Assembly (NCBI GenBank): GCA_910574865.1
Contig: CAJTDN010000019.1
Location: forward strand, 1 to 64,000
Direction: 5' to 3'
Source of the DNA: Lachnospiraceae bacterium
Lineage (GTDB): Bacteria; Bacillota; Clostridia; Lachnospirales; Lachnospiraceae
Length of the DNA: 64,000 nt
The notes below the pieces were generated by a model, which was not told the DNA's origin, did no database searches, and saw only the letters and a list, made by a program, of their open reading frames with translations. A program made the position numbers and the translations under genes. Shown here one piece after another: positions 785 through 9,569 of the stretch (within the stretch, counting starts at the first letter, position 1; each line of letters opens with the position of its first letter).

Positions 785-963
785 CTCACATATCCCGCCT
801 TTTCATCATGAATTTTTATTCACAGTTTCTTGCGCCGTTCTATGATTGTCAAAGACAGTATAACACTTTTTTCTTTATCGCAAAAGTCTATTTCGAGCAT
901 ACTTTATGTTTTTCGGAAGATTCGTTACAATTTGCTCCCTAACCGACCATGGATTTTAACGGC

Positions 964-990
964 AAAAGCGCGGCCTAAGCCGCGCTTTTT
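964..990. terminator. bidirectional hairpin terminator downstream of the peptide gene
   Basis: GCGCGGC, a CTAA loop and GCCGCGC (968-985) form a perfect 7-bp stem with four Ts on one side and five on the other. It lies about 15 bases beyond the stop codon of the 46-residue peptide gene and would end the signalling operon. Confidence 0.7.
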
Positions 991-999
991 CGTGTCTCC

Positions 1000-1140
1000 C
1001 TAGCAGCAAAACAATGTCCAAAAAGGACCCTTCCCAACCGTAATCTGGCTCTCTTCCTCCCGCTTTTCGTCCCGCGTCAATGCGTCGGCCTCCAGCACCT
1101 CGAGAAACACGTCCCCTGCCTTTTCTTGTCGTTCGCTCAT
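1000..1140 (-). CDS. 46-residue candidate signalling peptide precursor
   Basis: This small gene encodes a very polar, acidic N-terminal part (about residues 1-33, rich in E, K, R and D) and a hydrophobic aromatic tail, ITVGKGPFWTLFCC, that ends at the stop codon. It starts with ATG in a four-base ATGA overlap with the stop of the sensor kinase, and AAGGGAGGG lies 8 bases upstream, so translation is coupled. A terminator follows the stop. The position after an AgrC-like kinase and a LytTR regulator is where a peptide pheromone gene would sit. However, it has no AgrD-like acidic tail after the cysteines, no signal peptide, and no AgrB protease or lanthipeptide synthetase is nearby. I do not recognise the family. 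The alternative is a small cytoplasmic modulator of the kinase. Confidence 0.75.
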   Translation of the reverse strand: MSERQEKAGDVFLEVLEADALTRDEKREEESQITVGKGPFWTLFCC

Positions 1141-2438
1141 TTTTCGAACCCTCCCTTAAAAATAATTTTTACTTCAAAAGACCGCGCGTCATGCTGGAAT
1201 TCCATCTCCCCGTGATGCTTCTCCACAAAGCCTTTCACGCTCTCCAGCCCCCAGCCGTGTCCGCACTTGTCTTTCTTAGTCGTCAAAAACTTCCCCTTTT
1301 CCACCAAAGGCTCCCGGCTGCTCGTATTCCATAGTGTCATGCCAAACACGTTGTATTTCATCCGGATCAACAACCTGATTTCCCGCCTCCCCTCCTCACA
1401 TTGTGAGGCCGCCTCTATCGCGTTGTCCAGCAATGTACCAAGAATAATAGAGAAGTCCAGCTCGTCTATCGGTATTTCAAAAAAATCGATTTCCAACTGA
1501 AACTTTATCCCCTCTTCCTCCATCTTAAGGTATTTACTGTTAAGGATAAAATCCACATATTCATTTTTCGTCCACACCTTTTTGCCTTGCAGTTCTTCCT
1601 GGTACTCTTTCAGCTTTTCCAATGCTCTGTCGCATTCTTCGTTCTCAATGCATCGCTGCAAAAACAACATCACATGTTTCGCGTCATGCATCCTCCTCTC
1701 ATGTTCTTCATACACTTCCTTTTGTTCCGACTGCTTTGCCACCAAGGAGGCTTGTCGAAGCAAAAGCGTCTCTTTCTCATGCTTTTCACTTTGATACATC
1801 CAGTATATGGCCATGCATCCAATCGCGAGAAACAAACCCACGCTTCCCCATAACAAAAAGTAAAATGCACTCTTGGAAAACCGCTCTTCCCCGCTCACCA
1901 GCCCATAAGACAACAGTTCCCACGCGACAACTGCTAAACATAGAAACATTAATCTGTATTTTTCTAACACTTTTCGTACCAAAGCATCGTGTCTTCTCCA
2001 AAACCAACCGTAAAATATCGCCACAACGGCCAGCAGCAACATCTCATACAAAAACCCGCTCCATGGCTTCGCCCCATAGTTGGCATGAACCAAATCACAT
2101 TCCAATATCATTCCCCGTGCCACCACATACGGCGTTCGTAGCAGCGACATCATGATAAAATAAAATTGCATCCATATGAAAGAGACATGCAATCTGCACC
2201 GATAAAAGCAGAACACATGCAAACAGCACAAAATTCCAACCGCAATCACCGCAAGGTTAGAAATAAAAGCTAGTGTATCATTCACCGTATACAGTCCGCA
2301 TATGATGAAAAAGCTGACCCACTCCGCTACCCGTGCAAACATATTTTTAAACCGCCGCTCCGGATAGCAGCGGATGAACATGCCACATCCCAACGCCACC
2401 TCCAGTACCACCACGATGCCACAAAGCACGATATTCAT
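1137..2438 (-). CDS. AgrC-like GHKL sensor histidine kinase
   Basis: The protein has 433 residues. About six hydrophobic segments fill residues 1-225, as in AgrC-type peptide sensors, followed by a coiled-coil linker (about 225-250). The phospho-acceptor region RRMHDAKHVMLFLQ is near 258. The GHKL ATPase part shows the N box LLDNAIEAA (about 347) and the glycine box HGWGLESVKGF (about 402). AgrC-like kinases respond to extracellular peptides and phosphorylate LytTR regulators, and the LytTR gene lies 91 bases upstream. The stop overlaps the start of the small peptide gene. The start is supported by AAGGAAG about 8 bases before the ATG. The ligand is inferred, not shown. Confidence 0.9.
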   Translation of the reverse strand: MNIVLCGIVVVLEVALGCGMFIRCYPERRFKNMFARVAEWVSFFIICGLYTVNDTLAFISNLAVIAVGILCCLHVFCFYRCRLHVSFIWMQFYFIMMSLLRTPYVVARGMILECDLVHANYGAKPWSGFLYEMLLLAVVAIFYGWFWRRHDALVRKVLEKYRLMFLCLAVVAWELLSYGLVSGEERFSKSAFYFLLWGSVGLFLAIGCMAIYWMYQSEKHEKETLLLRQASLVAKQSEQKEVYEEHERRMHDAKHVMLFLQRCIENEECDRALEKLKEYQEELQGKKVWTKNEYVDFILNSKYLKMEEEGIKFQLEIDFFEIPIDELDFSIILGTLLDNAIEAASQCEEGRREIRLLIRMKYNVFGMTLWNTSSREPLVEKGKFLTTKKDKCGHGWGLESVKGFVEKHHGEMEFQHDARSFEVKIIFKGGFEK

Positions 2439-2529: not shown

Positions 2530-3255
2530 CTATCCATTCCTTTTGATGTTTCCTATCCCCATCATCCTGTCCCTTAACTCCCGGCTCCGCGCCCGGCTGA
2601 TTCCCAGTACCGTGCCGTCACGCATCCTGCAGTCACTGTCTTCCCAGGCCTCCAACTGATTCAGGTTGATAATGCAGCCCTTGTCAATCCACATGAAATC
2701 CTTGTCCCCCAGTTCCCGTTCTATTTCCCCCAACGTACCGCGCACACGCACTTCCCTCTTGTCCTTCATATGGAACACGACATATTTCTTATCCCTTGTC
2801 AGATACATAATCTTATTATAATACAGACGCTCCGTTCCTGAGCTAAGCCTTGCCGCATAAAAACGCTCTTTCCTCTCCACCAATCTGGGGACGATGGCAT
2901 CATACATCTCGGGCAGTTTCTCTTTCAAATCCTTCTTCATGATATAACGAAACGCGTTGACCTCGTATGCCGCGATGGCATACTCCGTATAATTCGTCAC
3001 GCATACAATCGCGCACTCATTATCACGCTGGCGAATCCTTCTCGCGACATCCAGCCCGGAACAATCCCCCAGCTCGACATCCAAAAGAAAAAGGTCGAAG
3101 TCCCGCCCGCTTTCCACATCCTGGAGCAACTGTTTGTAATCTATATAATCATAAAACCCATACGGGGTATCCGTCTTTGCAAAATATTTTTCCGTCTCCT
3201 TGCATATCTGCCTGATATATCCCCGCTCGTCATCCAGCACGGCTATCTTTAGCAT
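2530..3255 (-). CDS. LytTR-family response regulator
   Basis: The protein has 241 residues when started at the ATG at 3253-3255, which follows GGAGGAATTGAG; the upstream in-frame codons lack a ribosome site. The N-terminal receiver domain begins LKIAVLDDE and has the phosphorylated Asp in LFLLDVELGD, with a helical segment DVARRIRQRDNE. The C-terminal LytTR DNA-binding domain (about 135-240) includes YLTRDKKYVVFHMKD and FMWIDKGCIINLNQL. LytTR proteins bind two 9-bp direct repeats one helical face apart, and three such repeat pairs lie within 6 kb (4035-4063, 5174-5202, 8891-8919). It is the first gene of the operon with the GHKL kinase and the peptide, behind a strong promoter. Confidence 0.93.
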   Translation of the reverse strand: MLKIAVLDDERGYIRQICKETEKYFAKTDTPYGFYDYIDYKQLLQDVESGRDFDLFLLDVELGDCSGLDVARRIRQRDNECAIVCVTNYTEYAIAAYEVNAFRYIMKKDLKEKLPEMYDAIVPRLVERKERFYAARLSSGTERLYYNKIMYLTRDKKYVVFHMKDKREVRVRGTLGEIERELGDKDFMWIDKGCIINLNQLEAWEDSDCRMRDGTVLGISRARSRELRDRMMGIGNIKRNG

Positions 3256-3304: not shown

Positions 3305-3333
3305 ATTATAACTTACATGTGGGGGTTTTTCAA
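3305..3333 (-). promoter_or_regulatory. sigma-A promoter of the LytTR-kinase-peptide operon
   Basis: On the minus strand TTGAAA (3328-3333), 17 bases and a perfect TATAAT (3305-3310) precede the response regulator gene by about 50 bases. It lacks the AGGGTCAA repeats found at the three putative target promoters, so the operon may be constitutive. Confidence 0.75.
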
Positions 3334-3419: not shown

Positions 3420-3965
3420 CTATTCCAAGAATTTTTTCTCCGGGATTTCCTCCCCATCCTCCGTAAGAAAGACAATATCGTCAAATTCATCCTCCATCAC
3501 GACCACGAAAGTTTTTCCCGGCTCCGTGCCAAACCTCTTCTCCTTTCCGTCTGCCGTAGCCTCGATTTCGCTGATGTTTTCCAGATTCAGCGACACATAT
3601 ACCCGGTTCGAATGATAGATACCGCCCGTTTGGAGCTTCACGGAAGGATTGTCCTTCCTTAACATCCCGTCTTGCCGCTTCATCCAACGGTCAAAAAACG
3701 GAACTTTCTCGTAATATGCATAGCATGCACCTTCCCTTTCCCCATAAACTCCCAAGAACACGGCCACATCATCCTGCTTCACCCACAAAATCTCCGTATA
3801 ATTTCCCGGAAATTCTTCCAAAAAATCCGTTTCCAAATCCACGCCCTTATGTAGATAGTGTTGCGCATTATTATAATACCGCGCCAAGAAATAGAATAAA
3901 CTTATGCATAATATAACAATGACAACCATGATAATGACAATCAGGTTCTTATATTTTTTCTTCAC
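3420..3965 (-). CDS. single-pass membrane-anchored exported protein, putative LytTR target
   Basis: The start codon is probably GTG (3963-3965) after AAGGGATGAAACAAC. The 181-residue product opens with MKKKYKN, then one hydrophobic segment (about residues 8-30), so most of it should lie outside the membrane. The outer part is acidic and aromatic, with ILWVKQDDVAVFLGVYGE and a C-terminal FDDIVFLTEDGEEI. I do not recognise a named domain. It is transcribed alone from promoter 1, whose direct repeats match those before the next gene and the ABC operon, so it is probably co-regulated with them by the neighbouring two-component system. Confidence 0.75.
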   Translation of the reverse strand: MKKKYKNLIVIIMVVIVILCISLFYFLARYYNNAQHYLHKGVDLETDFLEEFPGNYTEILWVKQDDVAVFLGVYGEREGACYAYYEKVPFFDRWMKRQDGMLRKDNPSVKLQTGGIYHSNRVYVSLNLENISEIEATADGKEKRFGTEPGKTFVVVMEDEFDDIVFLTEDGEEIPEKKFLE

Positions 3966-4001: not shown

Positions 4002-4063
4002 ACCATAGCACATATACGAAACCTTGTCTATAGCTTGACCCTCAACTCAACGATTTTGACCCT
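4002..4063 (-). promoter_or_regulatory. LytTR-type promoter 1 with two direct repeats
   Basis: Read leftward, AGGGTCAA occurs at 4056-4063 and again at 4035-4042 (21-bp period), followed by -35 TAGACA (4025-4030), 17 bases and -10 TATGGT (4002-4007). The repeat spacing is what LytTR regulators such as AgrA use. It is placed 37 bases before the exported-protein gene at 3965. Two further copies with the same spacings are at 5141-5202 and 8858-8919. Confidence 0.8.
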
Positions 4064-4068
4064 ATTCT

Positions 4069-4110
4069 GTTACAATTCAGCTCCGCGCCAGCGCGGAGCC
4101 GAACTGTAAC
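4069..4110. repeat. 42-bp near-perfect palindrome
   Basis: GTTACAATTCAGCTCCGCGC and its near-complement GCGCGGAGCCGAACTGTAAC flank two bases. It could serve as a terminator for the gene ending at 4245 and also sits right behind LytTR promoter 1, insulating it. It has no clear T-run. Confidence 0.6.
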
Positions 4111-4244
4111 CCTATTCTGTCATTATTCAAGGGATTGTGCGCCCTGCCGCATGGCCACCATCCAATCCATCTCATGCCAATCTAAAACCGTCGCCCTTGT
4201 TGCCACTCATACTTAATGTCCATGAAGCCTATCGTGAGTATAAC

Positions 4245-5020
4245 TTATAACGTGACCTTCCGCACCTTTTCCATATATCTTTCCTCGAAATCACTCTTCT
4301 TCACCACGTAATACACGTGTCCCCCTCCGTTCGACCTGCCTATCAGATATTCCGATGTTTCCTCCAGGATTTGGAAACCGTCCACTTCCCATCTGGCCCT
4401 ATCCTCGACAAACAAGTCATGCCGCTCTCCCGTCTTTAAATCAATGTAGTATTGTTGATCCCTTTTTTCATCCAAATATTCACCACCCAGCAATTTATCG
4501 CCGTCATAGACCAAATCAACAGCTTCCCCGTAATATCTGCCCAACAAACGGTTTTCTTTGTCCGTACGCAAAAATTCTTCCAGTTCCCTATTTGAGGGGT
4601 CATACCAGTAATATATGAAACCTATTTCATCATAATTTACTGCCAGCCATTTCCCATCATATACCCCTGACAAATAAAACGGCCTTTGGTGTTCCCCTTC
4701 TCCCATGAAACGCATCGCACCTTCCGATATCACTTCGATTTGCCGTGTTTTTGGATAAAACGTCTTATATTCCATGTACATTGACATGCGTCCCCAGTAT
4801 TCATCATAATACTGCCAGTAATCTCCCGCCGGATTCTGTTCATAATATTGCTCCATTGTCAGTTTTAGTTCGTCTGGATACTCCACGGAAAACACCGGTT
4901 TCTCGACCAACCGCGGGTCGATTCCTTCCTCTGGCCCACCTTTGTCCGACGCCAGTGACGACATGCTCATAGACATTACCATAACGCTTGCTAATAACAT
5001 ACTTAAAATTCGTTTTTCAT
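4245..5020 (-). CDS. secreted protein of unknown function; start frameshifted
   Basis: The open frame from the ATG at 4998-5000 gives 251 residues beginning MLLASVMVMSMSMSSLAS, a signal-peptide core without its basic N-terminus. The best ribosome site (GGAGGA at 5028-5033) belongs to an ATG at 5018-5020, which is out of frame by one base across a run of five A residues (5013-5017). With six A residues the start would read MKKRILSMLLASVMVMS, a textbook signal peptide. The mature part is rich in Tyr, Trp and acidic residues (YYEQNPAGDYWQYYDEYW) and looks beta-rich; no family recognised. It is transcribed alone from LytTR promoter 2. Confidence 0.7.
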
Positions 5021-5054
5021 TTTTGCTTCCTCCGTTTTTCTTTTCGTTATCTTC

Positions 5055-5099
5055 CTAAGTTTTCGTTTCCCACTCACCAACAATACCAACATTCTGCAT
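5055..5099 (-). CDS. possible 14-codon leader peptide in the 5' UTR
   Basis: Between promoter 2 and the secreted-protein gene, GGAGGAG (5105-5112) precedes an ATG by 6-7 bases; the frame reads MQNVGIVGEWETKT and stops. The equivalent place after promoter 3 shows GGGAG and ATGTGGAATAAATAA, a four-codon frame within a similar TCCGATG context. The conserved context suggests either short leaders or just a shared ancestral 5' end. Confidence 0.3.
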   Translation of the reverse strand: MQNVGIVGEWETKT

Positions 5100-5140
5100 C
5101 GGACTGCTCCTCCTTCTATATGTTTTCTTAACTCATCTTT

Positions 5141-5202
5141 ACCATAGCACATACATTAACCCCTGTCTATAACCCGACCCTCAACTCAGCGATTTTGACC
5201 TT
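5141..5202 (-). promoter_or_regulatory. LytTR-type promoter 2 with two direct repeats
   Basis: AAGGTCAA (5195-5202) and AGGGTCGG (5174-5181) with a 21-bp period, -35 TAGACA (5164-5169), 17 bases, -10 TATGGT (5141-5146). It begins directly after the stop codon of the ABC permease gene and drives the secreted protein gene to its left. Confidence 0.8.
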
Positions 5203-5208
5203 ATTCTG

Positions 5209-5820
5209 TTATTTCATGCTTCTTTTCCGCATGACCACCATCACCACTCCCAACAGTAAAACCACCGGAACCATGTCGAGAATCCCATAGTACAATCGCG
5301 CTGTCCCTTCCTGCTCCAGCAACGTCAACGACAGCGGCCACAGTCCCTTGTCCTCCAGAAAAATCAACGCCGGATCCACCAGGTTCCAGTTGAGCAAAAA
5401 GCAAATGGCAAAAGCCGCCGCTATCACCCCGGACAAGTTTGGCAAAAGCACGAAACGGAAATAGGACAGTAGCGAACCAGATTCCAAACAGAACGCATCC
5501 TCGAATTCGCCCGGCACCTGCTTGTTACCCATCCACAGAATCAGAATCGGCAGCGGCGACACCATCCCCGGAATCAAAATCGCCAGGCGCGTGTCAAGCA
5601 AATGTAAAAATTCCAATAATACGTACTCCGGTAGCATCGTCACCTGGAACGGCAAAAACAAAAGAACCACGCAGCACCAGAAAAGCATCTTCATCCACAC
5701 GCTGTCCCAGCGTGCCATCGCGTAACTCGTCGGCACGGCGACCAAGGTGGCAAGCAACGCCGTCCCTAGCGCATAAACCAAGGAATTCCCGTATTGTTGA
5801 AACAATAATGATACATTCAT
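5209..5820 (-). CDS. sugar-type ABC transporter permease (MalG-like)
   Basis: Starting at the ATG at 5818-5820, eight bases after GGGGAGGA, the product has 203 residues, shorter than the usual 270-280 of CUT1 permeases. It has about five or six membrane spans and a recognisable EAA-like cytoplasmic loop (EFEDAFCLESGSLLSYFRFVLLP), with aspartate-phenylalanine where most family members have EAA. It ends the operon binding protein - MalF-like permease - MalG-like permease. No ATPase gene is present, so a shared MsmX/MsmK-type ATPase elsewhere is probably used. The short length suggests loss of the first membrane segment or an atypical subfamily. Confidence 0.85.
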   Translation of the reverse strand: MNVSLLFQQYGNSLVYALGTALLATLVAVPTSYAMARWDSVWMKMLFWCCVVLLFLPFQVTMLPEYVLLEFLHLLDTRLAILIPGMVSPLPILILWMGNKQVPGEFEDAFCLESGSLLSYFRFVLLPNLSGVIAAAFAICFLLNWNLVDPALIFLEDKGLWPLSLTLLEQEGTARLYYGILDMVPVVLLLGVVMVVMRKRSMK

Positions 5821-5905
5821 CACCATTCCTCCCCTCGCAAACCCTATTTGTTTTTCATTTCCAGTTTGCCGGCACAAACCGGCTCGCAAACGCTCCGCTT
5901 TTTGC

Positions 5906-6742
5906 TCATATCACCGCTTGGCCTAGCATCTTGCCCCGTTGATGCCACATGGCCGATTGCAGTAACCGCACGCCCCAAATCGTCCCTGCCAAAAACGCGG
6001 TGAACAAGATTGCGGCAGCCGCCAGATAGGGATAATTTAATCTCAAAAAATGGTTATGCATATAATGTTGCAGCAAATATACTTCGTCCGGCGGGAAACT
6101 GGTTCCGAAGAGCAAATACGCCTCCCTGAAAATGCCGAAAAACTGCATCACCAAAAACACAGCCCCCACACCGATATAAAGCGTCAGCATCGGGAACTGC
6201 ATGTAGACAAAAAGCTGCCATCGGTTGGCACCGTCCAGCCGCGCCGCCTCCAGCATGTCCTTTTCCACCTTCGCCAGTCCCACACTCAAAAATAACAAAA
6301 CCACGCCGGTGTTACGCCACACGAACAAAGTCAACAACTGCCATCTCGGCGGCAAACCACCGCCCACAAGCCGCAAAAGTTCCACCGAAAGTACCGACGG
6401 CATAAACAACGGAACAAGCAGCACGACGGCGACCCCCGTCATCCGCCAGCCAAAAAAGGCATCCGGCAACACCAGCAAAAGTCCCAACAATAAAACCATC
6501 AAAAGTGCCGCCACCAGAAGAAGCACCGTGTTCTTCAAGGCCAGCAAGAAATAGGAATTGCCCAGGATATCAAGCAAGTTGCCCAAACCCACGAACCGCT
6601 TTTGGAACACGTTATTTATCGCCGCATAATAAAACAACGCGCAACCGGGGAGAATGTATAGAAAAATGACCCCCAATATTCCCGGGAGTGCCATCAATTT
6701 CATCTGTTGCCGAAACGTCAGTTTTCCACTTTTTCCTCGCAT
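5906..6742 (-). CDS. sugar-type ABC transporter permease (MalF-like)
   Basis: The 278-residue protein has six hydrophobic spans and the binding-protein-dependent permease loop MLEAARLDGANRWQLFVYMQFPML (EAA motif, about residues 172-195), which couples to the ATPase. It has a short basic N-terminus (MRGKSGKLTFRQQMKLMALPG) before the first span. The start follows AGGAAAC. It lies 47 bases after the binding-protein gene and about 85 bases before the second permease in a leftward operon driven by LytTR promoter 3. Confidence 0.92.
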   Translation of the reverse strand: MRGKSGKLTFRQQMKLMALPGILGVIFLYILPGCALFYYAAINNVFQKRFVGLGNLLDILGNSYFLLALKNTVLLLVAALLMVLLLGLLLVLPDAFFGWRMTGVAVVLLVPLFMPSVLSVELLRLVGGGLPPRWQLLTLFVWRNTGVVLLFLSVGLAKVEKDMLEAARLDGANRWQLFVYMQFPMLTLYIGVGAVFLVMQFFGIFREAYLLFGTSFPPDEVYLLQHYMHNHFLRLNYPYLAAAAILFTAFLAGTIWGVRLLQSAMWHQRGKMLGQAVI

Positions 6743-6789
6743 GTTTCCTGCCCCCCTTCATCACACGTTGCGCGTCATCTAGGAAATCT

Positions 6790-8670
6790 TCACTGATTCA
6801 GTTTTCTCCGCGTCAATTCCGTAATTTCCTGAATTGCCTCGTTTTCCGTCATGGTGCCGTTGACATATCCTTCCAGCGTCCCGCCATAATCCGCATAATT
6901 GCCGAAAACACACTTGGCATGATTTTCAAAAACACTCTCCAACAACGGATATTGCCCTGCGGAATCCTTCATCGTGTACAATCCGCACTCTGCCAGCAAG
7001 GACATGTACTCCATGGCCAGTTCAATCTGGCCGCTGTTCGGATTGACGATGTTGTAAATCAGGCGAACAGGACTGACGGAAGTTTCCCCATTAATAGAGG
7101 GCAGTGGTACAAATTTTACACCTTCACCCACATACGGTTCCATGGTGTCAAACGCAAACAATTCCCCATTTTCAAATATTTCCGGCGCGCCCTCACCTTG
7201 GTAATACCGAATGTCCATATTCTCTATTCGCCGCAACAACTGCAGCACCTTACGAAACGCCTCCGTGTCAAACTGATACTCGCCCTCCAAAGTGTCACAA
7301 TACGTGGCGACATATTGCTCCAAAAGCACACTTTCAAGCCGAATTTTATTGAACTGTACCTCTTTGTCATACTTTTCAATAACATCCAGAAATGAATCCC
7401 ATGTAGAAACGTCCTCTTTAGCAAGTTCGGGATAAGCCGCCTCATTGCAGTAAAGAAGTTCTATCCCGATGCCGCCTGGCACGGCAAATATTTCACCCTC
7501 GTACGTGCACCCTTCCAAAACAGAAGGATACCACTGTTCTAATTTCTTCACGATTTCAGCATTTTCAGACAAGTCGACATAAGCGTGGTTTCTTACGTAG
7601 TTAAATGACGTCACGTCACCACCATTAATTCGATAAATGTCATATTTATCAGAACCGGACATCAGGTTCGTCAGGAACGTCTCTTGGTTCATCCCTATAT
7701 CGGACACGTAATCCACCGTCGCCCCAGATTCCGTCTCCAATTCCGATTTCAAATTTCGATGCGTTCCATCTAACATATCAAAGTCTGTCCCGGTTCCATA
7801 AAGCATCAATGTCCGTTCAAACTCTTGAACATGAGCCGTCTTTGTCGCCAATGTCAATTTTTCAAACCGTTTCAGCAACAACAAGGTATCCCCGCACTCC
7901 GCAATGACATCATAATCCGTGTCCATATCATGCAGATATTCCGTCATTCCATCTTCTTCCTTTACCACCTTCTGATCCACGCAATAATAATATCGTCCAT
8001 GAGTATCCACACAGAAAGATATCAGCCCCGTTCCAAACCCTTGGCCAAGTGAACCGTAGTCTTCCCCATTCTCTTCCGCACGGGCGGAAACCTCGTACCC
8101 TATCACTCGACCATGCTGGTACGTCAGCAGGCTCCCCGAGCCAGCCATCGAAACGCCCTCTTGTAACATTTCTTCCATCCGTTGTCCCCCCCACGGAAGG
8201 ACATAGGTATGCTCCGCATATGCATCATTCTCCTGCACTCCCACGCTCAAATATACGTTGGAATCCACCGCTTCAAAGTCAATCAAATCGGCAATTTCCA
8301 CATCTAATTCATATTCGTCCTCTATTCCGCCGTCTTTGTCCAATTTCAAGATGCTTTGATTCTGCATGTCCAATGCATATAACGCGTCACCGTACGCGAT
8401 TTGGGCAATTACCCTTTCCGGGAAGGCATAAGCCTCCCCGGGATTTCCTTTCGCGTCATAAAGCAGGATTTTATCTGCCGCCGCCACATAATAACCCTTC
8501 CCGTTTGAACATACGTCCATGGCATCAGCCAAATCTTCTTCCGCGATTTCCACTTCCGTCTGGCTTCCATTCCTCGCGCCACAACCGCTTAAAAATGCCA
8601 TTGGTAAAATACCCAGGAACAAAAACCACCGAAACATCCGTTTTAGATCATGCTTTAAATCACGCTTCAT
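6790..8670 (-). CDS. lipoprotein substrate-binding protein with extra N-terminal propeller-like domain
   Basis: The 626-residue protein has a basic N-terminus, a hydrophobic segment and the lipobox FLSGC at about residue 30, so it is a lipid-anchored extracytoplasmic protein. Residues from about 290 on (RTLMLYGTGTDFDML to the end) resemble family 1 solute-binding proteins: FLTNLMSGSDKYDIYRINGG, FAVPGGIGIELLYCNEAAYP, STWDSFLDVIEKYDKE. Residues 40-285 are extra and consist of short repeats such as GKGYYVAAADKILLYDAKG, GDALYALDMQNQSILKLDKDG and DTLLLLKRFEKLTLA, the look of a beta-propeller. Ordinary binding proteins are about 430 residues. The ligand is unknown. First gene of the ABC operon under LytTR promoter 3. 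Confidence 0.85.
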   Translation of the reverse strand: MKRDLKHDLKRMFRWFLFLGILPMAFLSGCGARNGSQTEVEIAEEDLADAMDVCSNGKGYYVAAADKILLYDAKGNPGEAYAFPERVIAQIAYGDALYALDMQNQSILKLDKDGGIEDEYELDVEIADLIDFEAVDSNVYLSVGVQENDAYAEHTYVLPWGGQRMEEMLQEGVSMAGSGSLLTYQHGRVIGYEVSARAEENGEDYGSLGQGFGTGLISFCVDTHGRYYYCVDQKVVKEEDGMTEYLHDMDTDYDVIAECGDTLLLLKRFEKLTLATKTAHVQEFERTLMLYGTGTDFDMLDGTHRNLKSELETESGATVDYVSDIGMNQETFLTNLMSGSDKYDIYRINGGDVTSFNYVRNHAYVDLSENAEIVKKLEQWYPSVLEGCTYEGEIFAVPGGIGIELLYCNEAAYPELAKEDVSTWDSFLDVIEKYDKEVQFNKIRLESVLLEQYVATYCDTLEGEYQFDTEAFRKVLQLLRRIENMDIRYYQGEGAPEIFENGELFAFDTMEPYVGEGVKFVPLPSINGETSVSPVRLIYNIVNPNSGQIELAMEYMSLLAECGLYTMKDSAGQYPLLESVFENHAKCVFGNYADYGGTLEGYVNGTMTENEAIQEITELTRRKLNQ

Positions 8671-8857
8671 CTCGTGATTCCTCGCTTTCTTATAATTCTA
8701 GTCTCTAACTCCGCATCCTACATGTAAACAATATCTGTTTCATGAATTCTTCTATGTCCCGATGATTCCGCACGAATCCTAATCCTGATTAAATTGCTTT
8801 AAATTATTTATTCCACATCGGACTCACTCCCTTCTATATATTTTTGACTGCACAGTT

Positions 8858-8919
8858 ACCATAACACATGTATTTACTCTTGTCTATAACTTGACCCTCA
8901 ACTCAACAATTTTGACCTT
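8858..8919 (-). promoter_or_regulatory. LytTR-type promoter 3 with two direct repeats
   Basis: AAGGTCAA (8912-8919) and AGGGTCAA (8891-8898) at a 21-bp period, then -35 TAGACA (8881-8886), 17 bases and -10 TATGGT (8858-8863). All spacings equal those of promoters 1 and 2. The 5' UTR to the binding-protein gene is about 180 bases. Confidence 0.8.
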
Positions 8920-9210: not shown

Positions 9211-9230
9211 ATGTTCAAACCCTAATTTCT

Positions 9231-9507
9231 AGCGTCGGTGTACGGAGGGCAACACGCCTCAGCCCATGTGATTTCAAGGGTTTTCAGCGTCATCTTCAAT
9301 CGGCGTACGTCCTTGTACGCCTCATTCATCTTCCTTGAAAACCCTTGAAATCCCTATGGGTGAGGTCGCAGAGTCGTGAAGAGGCATATTTCCCCCCTTT
9401 CAAGGCACTTGAGCGACGCGTACAAGGACGTACGCGGAGTGAAAGTAACGACGAAAGAGGGGAAATATGCCCTTCATCGACCGTGTTGCCTTCTGTACAC
9501 CGACGCT
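9231..9507. repeat. 277-bp multi-branched palindromic element
   Basis: The ends AGCGTCGGTGTAC (9231) and GTACACCGACGCT (9495-9507) pair over 26 bp; the two mismatches in the arm would be G-U wobbles. Inside are two long arms: 9257-9286 with 9336-9365, and 9383-9400 with 9454-9471. Each arm is capped by a GCGTAC/GTACGC hairpin. A half copy lies at 12009-12061. No coding frame is convincing. It looks like a non-autonomous MITE-like element or a structured RNA. Confidence 0.75.
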
Positions 9508-9569
9508 ACTATTCCTATTTACTATTTCTAAACACAAGTATAGTGCTTTTCACCCATATCTCCATCGCA

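Follow-up and report, generated by a model that had tools for sequence, protein, structure and literature searches.

A putative LytTR-type operator associated with LanM-linked peptide cassettes in Lachnospiraceae

In a 64,000-nucleotide stretch of the genome of a Lachnospiraceae bacterium probably of gut origin (positions 1-64,000 of contig CAJTDN010000019.1; hereafter the window, to which operator and gene coordinates refer), three promoters carry the same pair of direct repeats upstream of the -35 region, and a gene encoding a LytTR response regulator lies alongside them. Repeats of the same geometry occur in other Lachnospiraceae upstream of operons that encode a LytTR regulator, a kinase, a short peptide ending in two cysteines (CC peptide) and a LanM protein. 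We consider it quite probable, from sequence comparison, that the LytTR protein activates these promoters within a lanthipeptide autoinduction or quorum-sensing circuit. Its binding at the operators is supported by comparative evidence, and we infer it together with the activation of the promoters, the modification and export of the peptide, and the role of the peptide as ligand of the kinase. The occurrence of LytTR-linked sites and control genes beside peptide-making genes suggests a little-known system of signalling or peptide production. Genomes, contigs and loci are designated below by G, C and L followed by a number.

Results

Three promoters of one architecture in the window

The three sites lie on the minus strand and read octamer-13 bp-octamer-4 bp-TAGACA-17 bp-TATGGT, each with two RGGGTCAA-type repeats at a 21-bp period, and the -35 hexamer, the spacer length and the -10 hexamer are invariant among them. 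An earlier note on this DNA had described three co-oriented sites with these same elements, and its coordinates, shared orientation and layout were all confirmed. Operator/promoter 1 (4002..4063, minus strand; AGGGTCAA-N13-AGGGTCAA-N4-TAGACA-N17-TATGGT) is located ahead of the gene for a 181-amino acid (aa) membrane protein, operator/promoter 2 (5141..5202, minus strand; octamers AAGGTCAA and AGGGTCGG) ahead of an exported 251-aa open reading frame (ORF), and operator/promoter 3 (8858..8919, minus strand; octamers AAGGTCAA and AGGGTCAA) ahead of an ATP-binding cassette (ABC) operon. When up to three mismatches were allowed, the repeat pair had 3 matches in the window against a mean of 0.37 in shuffled sequences, and 3 matches were reached in none of 100 shuffles. 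The arrangement is that of a LytTR-type operator, i.e. paired direct repeats of 8-9 bp, 11-13 bp apart, with a period of about 21 bp.

On the minus strand, site 3 comes first and is followed by the genes for a solute-binding protein and two permeases; site 2 then precedes the 251-aa ORF, and site 1 precedes the 181-aa gene, LytTR, the GHKL kinase and a 46-aa ORF, in this order. The LytTR gene, which the earlier note had rightly placed alongside the sites, spans 2530..3255 (minus strand) and encodes a receiver and a LytTR domain (Pfam PF00072 Response_reg, 9.8e-13; PF04397 LytTR, 1.3e-12); its product is the putative operator-binding protein. The GHKL sensor histidine kinase (1137..2438, minus strand; PF14501, 2.5e-20) has a hydrophobic N-terminal half with five segments over threshold, and an HDxKH box. 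The start codon of the 46-aa ORF, a putative lanthipeptide precursor gene (1000..1140, minus strand), overlaps the stop codon of the kinase gene.

The composite motif in the source genome

The source genome (G000) comprises 5,334,347 bases in 82 contigs. The genome-wide search for the composite motif that the earlier note had called for gave, with up to three mismatches allowed, four matches, all of them exact, and no site with one to three mismatches; the reversed pattern had no match in the whole genome. The pattern was drawn from sites 1-3, which are themselves three of the four matches; site 4 is independent. It is located on contig C34, divergent from a LanM gene, and at all four sites the second octamer ends 4 bp before TAGACA, with the repeats directly upstream of the -35 hexamer. 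A fifth, weaker site was detected on contig C8 by a sequence-only model built from ten sites, four of them from the source genome (E 3.6e-8; scoring covered the best 150 of 1932 first-look candidates); it precedes a 95-aa ORF rich in hydrophobic residues. The motif is not scattered over the genome. The earlier note had spoken of a local regulon: the shared operators agree with a regulon, and it is not only local, given the further sites on contigs C34 (beside LanM) and C8.

Directly upstream of operators 1 and 5 there is a palindromic element with GTTAC...GTAAC ends (window 4064-4107 and L146, about 1562-1775), flanked, as judged by eye, by short direct duplications of operator-adjacent sequence; the stretch across the site-5 copy has 55 matches in the genome and belongs to a family resembling miniature inverted-repeat transposable elements. 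A different repeat element (window 9228-9510 and L037 9391-9667), whose ends resemble TAGCGTCGGTGTAC / GTACACCGACGCTA, lies upstream of site 3, and it also interrupts a gene region downstream of operator 4. In the leader of site 2, the promoter is followed by a mini-ORF of 14 codons that has a strong Shine-Dalgarno (SD) sequence (window 5055-5099; also L163 2760-2804) and reads MQNVGIVGEWETKT in the window and MQNVGIVGKWGAKT in G001; it could be a leader peptide, and shorter or different mini-ORFs occupy a similar place at other sites.

A LytTR-kinase-peptide-LanM cassette in related bacteria

In related Lachnospiraceae the gene order is LytTR, kinase, CC peptide and LanM. The LytTR orthologues of G001, G014 and G007 are 63%, 44% and 38% identical to the window LytTR, and in these three genomes the kinase is followed by the CC-ending peptide and then by LanM, with two more ORFs between peptide and LanM in G007. 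A search for LanM (E<=1e-30) in 12 genomes of the genus gave ten loci, nine of which have LytTR and kinase genes upstream on the same strand; the lone exception is the source genome's own. In one of the nine (L045, from G003 contig C212) the LytTR gene is cut at the contig end and the kinase reading frame is split into two ORFs (L045 8016-9339). At 1e-60, a family sample of 397 genomes contained LanM in three (the source genome, G014 and G042), and in G014 and G042 it is accompanied by the cassette. A profile search of genome contigs with the LanM alignment, in which the best 80 of 336 relatives were kept, yielded 78 loci biased to near relatives; LytTR is present upstream of LanM in 37 of them, and LytTR and/or the kinase in 38. 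Carriers of the cassette include Schaedlerella arabinosiphila DSM 106076, Blautia caecimuris DSM 29492, Faecalicatena contorta and Diplocloster agilis.

Pfam DUF4135 and LANC_like were both matched by the four LanM proteins tested, and three scored 565.7 (the source genome's protein, encoded beside site 4), 635.7 and 597.8 bits with TIGR03897, whose cut-off is 304. Twelve LanM proteins are 995-1260 aa long and have invariant C/C/H, D-x-H-x-x-N and D-x-E motifs, which we take, with an alignment to LicM2 for comparison, to be the Zn ligands (C/C/H) and the dehydratase motifs of LanM.

Two other protein families were noticed near the cassettes. One, of roughly 190-200 aa (L039 8265-8870 and relatives), is encoded upstream in 18 of 38 named cassettes (a cluster of 19 loci); the two members tested had no Pfam match, and it was not seen before LytTR in the window or in G001. 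The other consists of small exported proteins encoded after the peptide gene in G007 and G003 (L040 6937-7347, DUF2712; L045 4967-5377 and 7126-7536, similar by BLAST), where a half-site AAGGTCWG was seen by eye at the usual distance from the -10 region; the position weight matrix described below missed it.

The operator in other species

RVGGWCAA octamers at a 21-bp period are present upstream of the LytTR operons of G014, G007, G008, G003, G004 and G042, and a TAnnnT hexamer begins 34 or 35 bp past the start of the second octamer at these relatives' operators; one octamer of G003 (ACGGGCAA) and one second octamer of G008/G003 (GCGGACAA) deviate from the consensus. A strict composite operator, defined after the sites were seen, had 9 matches in 13 loci versus none in 100 dinucleotide shuffles, and 13 of 38 loci have the strict repeats in the 2 kb ahead of LytTR. 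The half-sites and a TG-x-TAnnnT-like -10 region are mostly kept in the relatives while the -35 hexamer varies, as expected for activator-dependent promoters.

The association with the LytTR gene across genomes was also evident with a position weight matrix (PWM) trained on ten sites, for which the threshold (12.9) was the highest score among the reversed sequences of all 78 loci. Above this value there was a site in 19 of 28 held-out LytTR-LanM loci (three of the 19 being marginal, 13.6-15.3) versus 2 of 41 loci without LytTR, and in both of the latter LanM lies at a contig end. The held-out set excludes nine loci whose genomes are related to those used for training; five of these nine were over the control and four (L056, L059, L092 and L095) were not. 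In the 78 loci there were 35 sites scoring above 13, all 35 on the LanM/LytTR strand; by our reading, about 20 are ahead of a LytTR operon or kinase and about 8 ahead of ORFs with signal-like N-termini. Among the exported-type targets tested, that of L063 matches carboxylesterase and that of L068 BspA-type leucine-rich repeats; those of L099 and L108 had no match above the cut-off.

The nearest relative, G001, has three diverged operators with GAGGTCAA as first octamer and GAGYCACT as second; these were picked out visually and by alignment and not with the PWM. The first precedes the series exported-transmembrane-LytTR-kinase-peptide-LanM, the second the series exported-transmembrane-solute-binding protein-permease-permease, and the third, near a contig end, overlaps the end of the last permease ORF. 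The solute-binding protein of this operator-linked ABC operon is a paralogue (33% identical) of that in the window; in G001, too, the regulon thus includes an ABC operon.

The 46-aa peptide and its family

The C-terminus of the 46-aa peptide is ITVGKGPFWTLFCC, ending in WTLFCC. Between this gene and its G001 copy there are 16 synonymous substitutions and 6 substitutions in residue-changing codons; the nonsynonymous rate (dN) is 0.052 and the synonymous rate (dS) 1.05, a dN/dS of about 0.05, and we therefore regard the ORF as a real, constrained gene. In the 38 cassette loci, a short ORF with a Cys in its last four residues precedes LanM in every case, the search having required such an ORF. 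These peptides, the source genome's own and two further copies form a set of 41, in which CC lies within the last four residues in 39, a Thr or Ser stands fifth from the last Cys in 40 and at -13 in 36, and a third Cys occurs at -10 in 24. They are thus short, with Ser/Thr and Cys in the C-terminal part, as are class II precursors.

A fixed peptide motif, set after the peptides were seen, consisted of [ST], one or two residues and CC near the end of an ORF of 38-60 codons that has an SD-like sequence and lies within 2.5 kb. It was found in 33 of 38 loci with LytTR and/or kinase versus 3 of 40 other LanM loci, in none of the 38 opposite strands, and in none of 20 sets shuffled in two-base blocks. 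The three positive loci without regulators are short contigs or contig ends, and the regulators may fall outside them; the five loci missed by the motif (L059, L069, L070, L089 and L102) each have a Cys-terminal ORF. The precursors had no match in NCBIfam (4 tested) and nothing convincing in Pfam (16 tested; the best was DUF6229, E 0.005, in 2 of the 16); AgrD was not among the four Pfam families matched by the 16 peptides at E<=1.

Other features of the window

The operator-linked genes agree in part with the two exported-protein genes and the ABC operon that had been proposed as targets. The 251-aa ORF (4245..5000, minus strand) does encode an exported protein; its SD-linked ATG (window 5000-5020) is out of frame and yields a 5-codon ORF, so the start of this gene may be disrupted. 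The 181-aa protein (3420..3965, minus strand) is anchored by one N-terminal membrane segment and not clearly secreted; a 61% identical homologue is encoded ahead of LytTR in G001. The ABC genes encode a 626-aa solute-binding protein (6790..8670, minus strand; SBP_bac_8 match at residues 314-506), permease 1 (5906..6742, minus strand; BPD_transp_1) and permease 2 (5209..5820, minus strand; BPD_transp_1 at 25.9 bits, slightly below the Pfam cut-off of 26.4), and an ATPase gene is absent among them. At E<=1e-15 the solute-binding protein was matched only in the source genome and G001, of 41 genomes. Just past the peptide gene, a G+C-rich inverted repeat with a short T run (963..992, minus strand) is a probable terminator; it was found by reading the sequence and is absent from the terminator-scan list.

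Discussion

The proposed circuit

In the mechanism that we propose, the adjacent LytTR response regulator would bind side by side at the two octamers of sites 1-3, probably in the form of a head-to-tail dimer that occupies one face of the helix. From there, immediately ahead of a -35 region that is weak and a -10 region of the extended type, it would recruit RNA polymerase and activate transcription. LytTR, the GHKL kinase and the CC-ending peptide would be expressed as one signalling and peptide operon; the LanM encoded beside operator 4 on contig C34 would dehydrate and cyclise the 46-aa peptide, and the released (methyl)lanthionine peptide would activate the kinase, directly or indirectly, which would in turn switch the operators on. 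Site 1 would provide positive feedback into the 181-aa gene and then into LytTR, and the output would comprise an ABC importer and several small proteins that are exported or membrane-bound. The LytTR operon itself is among the operator targets in many relatives, an arrangement that would likewise create positive feedback.

A broader version of this scheme is put forward tentatively, as a possibility that falls not far short of probable: a minimal cassette widespread in Lachnospiraceae, in which LanM would turn a CC-terminal peptide of 42-57 aa into a (methyl)lanthionine autoinducer sensed by an AgrC-like kinase, and LytTR would activate RVGGWCAA operators of its own operon and of exported proteins. 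It would amount to Agr-like quorum sensing without AgrB, and in the source genome to a regulon of at least five promoters, with LanM separated from the gene of its substrate.

Several observations weigh against activation by LytTR within such a circuit. The source genome's LanM on contig C34 is unlinked from the peptide gene, and no linked exporter or leader protease was identified for the cassette in these scans. The TAGACA hexamer is not kept outside the source genome. By the earlier note, its reading would be refuted if the motif stood ahead of assorted genes that have no connection to LytTR; in other species, sites with this geometry precede LytTR-kinase-peptide-LanM operons, and among all LytTR-LanM loci 24 of 37 have a site above the control maximum and 13 do not. 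The G001 operators, with their diverged second half-site, score 7.4-9.8, under the control maximum, and the closest orthologue of the window's solute-binding protein (82%, G001 contig C167) shares the leader and has no operator upstream in the stretch read. The sequence-only model, with the same best 150 of 1932 candidates scored, gave marginal matches (E 0.002-0.009) in G009, G006, G007 and G003; G001 and G002 were without a match. In the window, the LytTR gene has a promoter-like site of its own (3305..3333, minus strand; TTGAAA-N17-TATAAT), and the weak repeat-like match beside it has a PWM score of 8.2, below the control maximum of 12.9; autoregulation in the window would thus need read-through from site 1. 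Site 1 possibly feeds the LytTR operon in this way; the scan found no terminator-like site on the minus strand between the 181-aa gene and LytTR.

Alternative explanations

A serious contender, which we would stop short of calling probable, is an ordinary class II lantibiotic cluster in which LytTR and the kinase act as LanR and LanK, the CC peptide is an antimicrobial, the operators serve production and immunity, and the transporter is encoded elsewhere. The full length and usual motifs of LanM accord with it, as does the presence of an ABC-ATPase cluster beside 16 of 38 cassettes; part of them also have, nearby, ABC-ATPase-like ORFs whose size is of the immunity type. The source genome also encodes one ABC exporter with a C39 peptidase, its sole C39 match, which sits on contig C16 and was accordingly rejected as a linked LanT-type exporter. 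A linked LanT exporter with a C39 peptidase, as expected of a class II cassette, was not found: C39 was matched by none of eight ABC proteins tested near relatives' cassettes, and C39 and AgrB are both missing from the displayed families (25 of 97) for 91 cassette neighbours, although single cases are possible, since the census covered 91 of 173 ORFs, picked by hand with short ones and others omitted, and the most frequent families match 3 of the 91. Moreover, a GG or GA in the tested region before the core occurs in 1 of 41 peptides, and the targets in the window encode an importer and proteins that are exported or located in the membrane, none of them recognised as immunity genes. The peptide product may be the ligand of the kinase, an antimicrobial, or both; the lean gene set, with no recurring exporter or AgrB seen within the scope just given, speaks tentatively for a signal.

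The second alternative, which we regard as unlikely, is that the genes are arranged much as in Agr systems and that the LanM-type protein does not make the signal but acts as an effector of quorum sensing, as for CA_C0082 of Clostridium acetobutylicum. There, according to PMC10301443, the LanM-like gene lies directly 3' of agrBD-agrCA, is controlled by Agr and is dispensable for the autoinducing peptide. The same source describes the CA_C0082 homologues as short (670-728 aa) and without Zn ligands or dehydratase residues, whereas the LanM proteins found here have their full length and invariant motifs, and a conserved Ser/Thr/Cys-rich peptide is encoded between kinase and LanM. Of the Agr components, the GHKL kinase and the LytTR response regulator are present, and an AgrD-type precursor was not found among the peptides tested; the sole AgrB match of the source genome is on contig C8 and not beside the regulator pair.

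A different regulator, e.g. another LytTR paralogue, might bind the operators, given that the source genome has 24 LytTR-type matches, the window LytTR included. We find this improbable: the sites track LanM-linked relatives of the window LytTR across species, and the next best match in the source genome is just 30% identical. Finally, the likeness among sites 1-3 extends past the motif, so that promoter duplication may explain part of it, and a leader with a mini-ORF is common to several sites, but that the repeats are mere products of duplication and not functional operators is very improbable, as diverged sites elsewhere keep both half-sites and the 34/35-bp distance to the -10 region while the intervening sequence changes.

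Significance

If LytTR does act as proposed, the motif would make a family of Lachnospiraceae LytTR regulons predictable from their operator and would link these to a family of short putative lanthipeptide precursors left unnamed by our searches of Pfam and NCBIfam; the peptide-signalling circuit would be testable in cultured strains. Our searches of open-licence full text turned up no account of a LytTR-kinase-CC-peptide-LanM cassette in Lachnospiraceae or of its operator, and one paper, PMC10301443, that ties LanM-type proteins to a LytTR/Agr pair.

Comparison with known systems

Like those described here, the operators of the LytTR family (AgrA, HdrR/BrsR, VirR) consist of two direct repeats that lie on the same face of the helix, upstream of the promoter. 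In Streptococcus mutans the repeats are of 9 bp, mostly 12 bp apart and 4-11 bp upstream of the -35 region, some with an extended -10 (PMC6193735), which agrees with the claim of the earlier note that the 21-bp period is that of known LytTR sites; other direct repeats have a 24-nt spacer (PMC8515946) or, for VirR, 7-8 nt between repeats (PMC2838878), so the period is typical and not universal. The half-site RVGGWCAA is unlike the S. mutans repeats listed in PMC6193735, and the present set is tied to a LanM-peptide cassette. The LytTR regulatory systems (LRS) of PMC6193735 share with it a LytTR protein and positive feedback through direct repeats; they use a membrane inhibitor protein, whereas here a response regulator with a receiver domain adjoins a GHKL kinase, which is not the LRS pairing.

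As a class II lantibiotic cluster for comparison we take that of the lacticin 481 / LctM type. Such clusters, for which the structures of LicM2 and CylM were compared, share with the cassette a LanM with DUF4135 and LANC_like and a short precursor with Ser, Thr and Cys; unlike them, the system described here has a LytTR/GHKL regulator, no linked C39 exporter was found, and the precursors are without an NCBIfam or convincing Pfam match. Feedback of the kind proposed has precedents, since lanthipeptides can stimulate their own production (PMC10301443) and NisK senses nisin (PMC5266694).

The closest likeness is to the agr-LanM loci of Clostridium (CA_C0082, PMC10301443), where a GHKL/LytTR pair is also directly followed by a LanM-type gene. 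Those loci contain agrB/agrD and a shortened LanM without catalytic residues, whereas here LanM is full, a CC peptide is encoded between kinase and LanM, and no linked AgrB was seen. According to the same paper, full-length LanM genes are often part of larger lanthipeptide clusters in which agr genes are also present, e.g. in C. saccharobutylicum and some B. paralicheniformis; the co-occurrence of LanM with an agr-type pair is therefore not new in itself. The cassette is relevant to the question of how, in Clostridia, Agr-like regulators and LanM-like proteins came to be associated.

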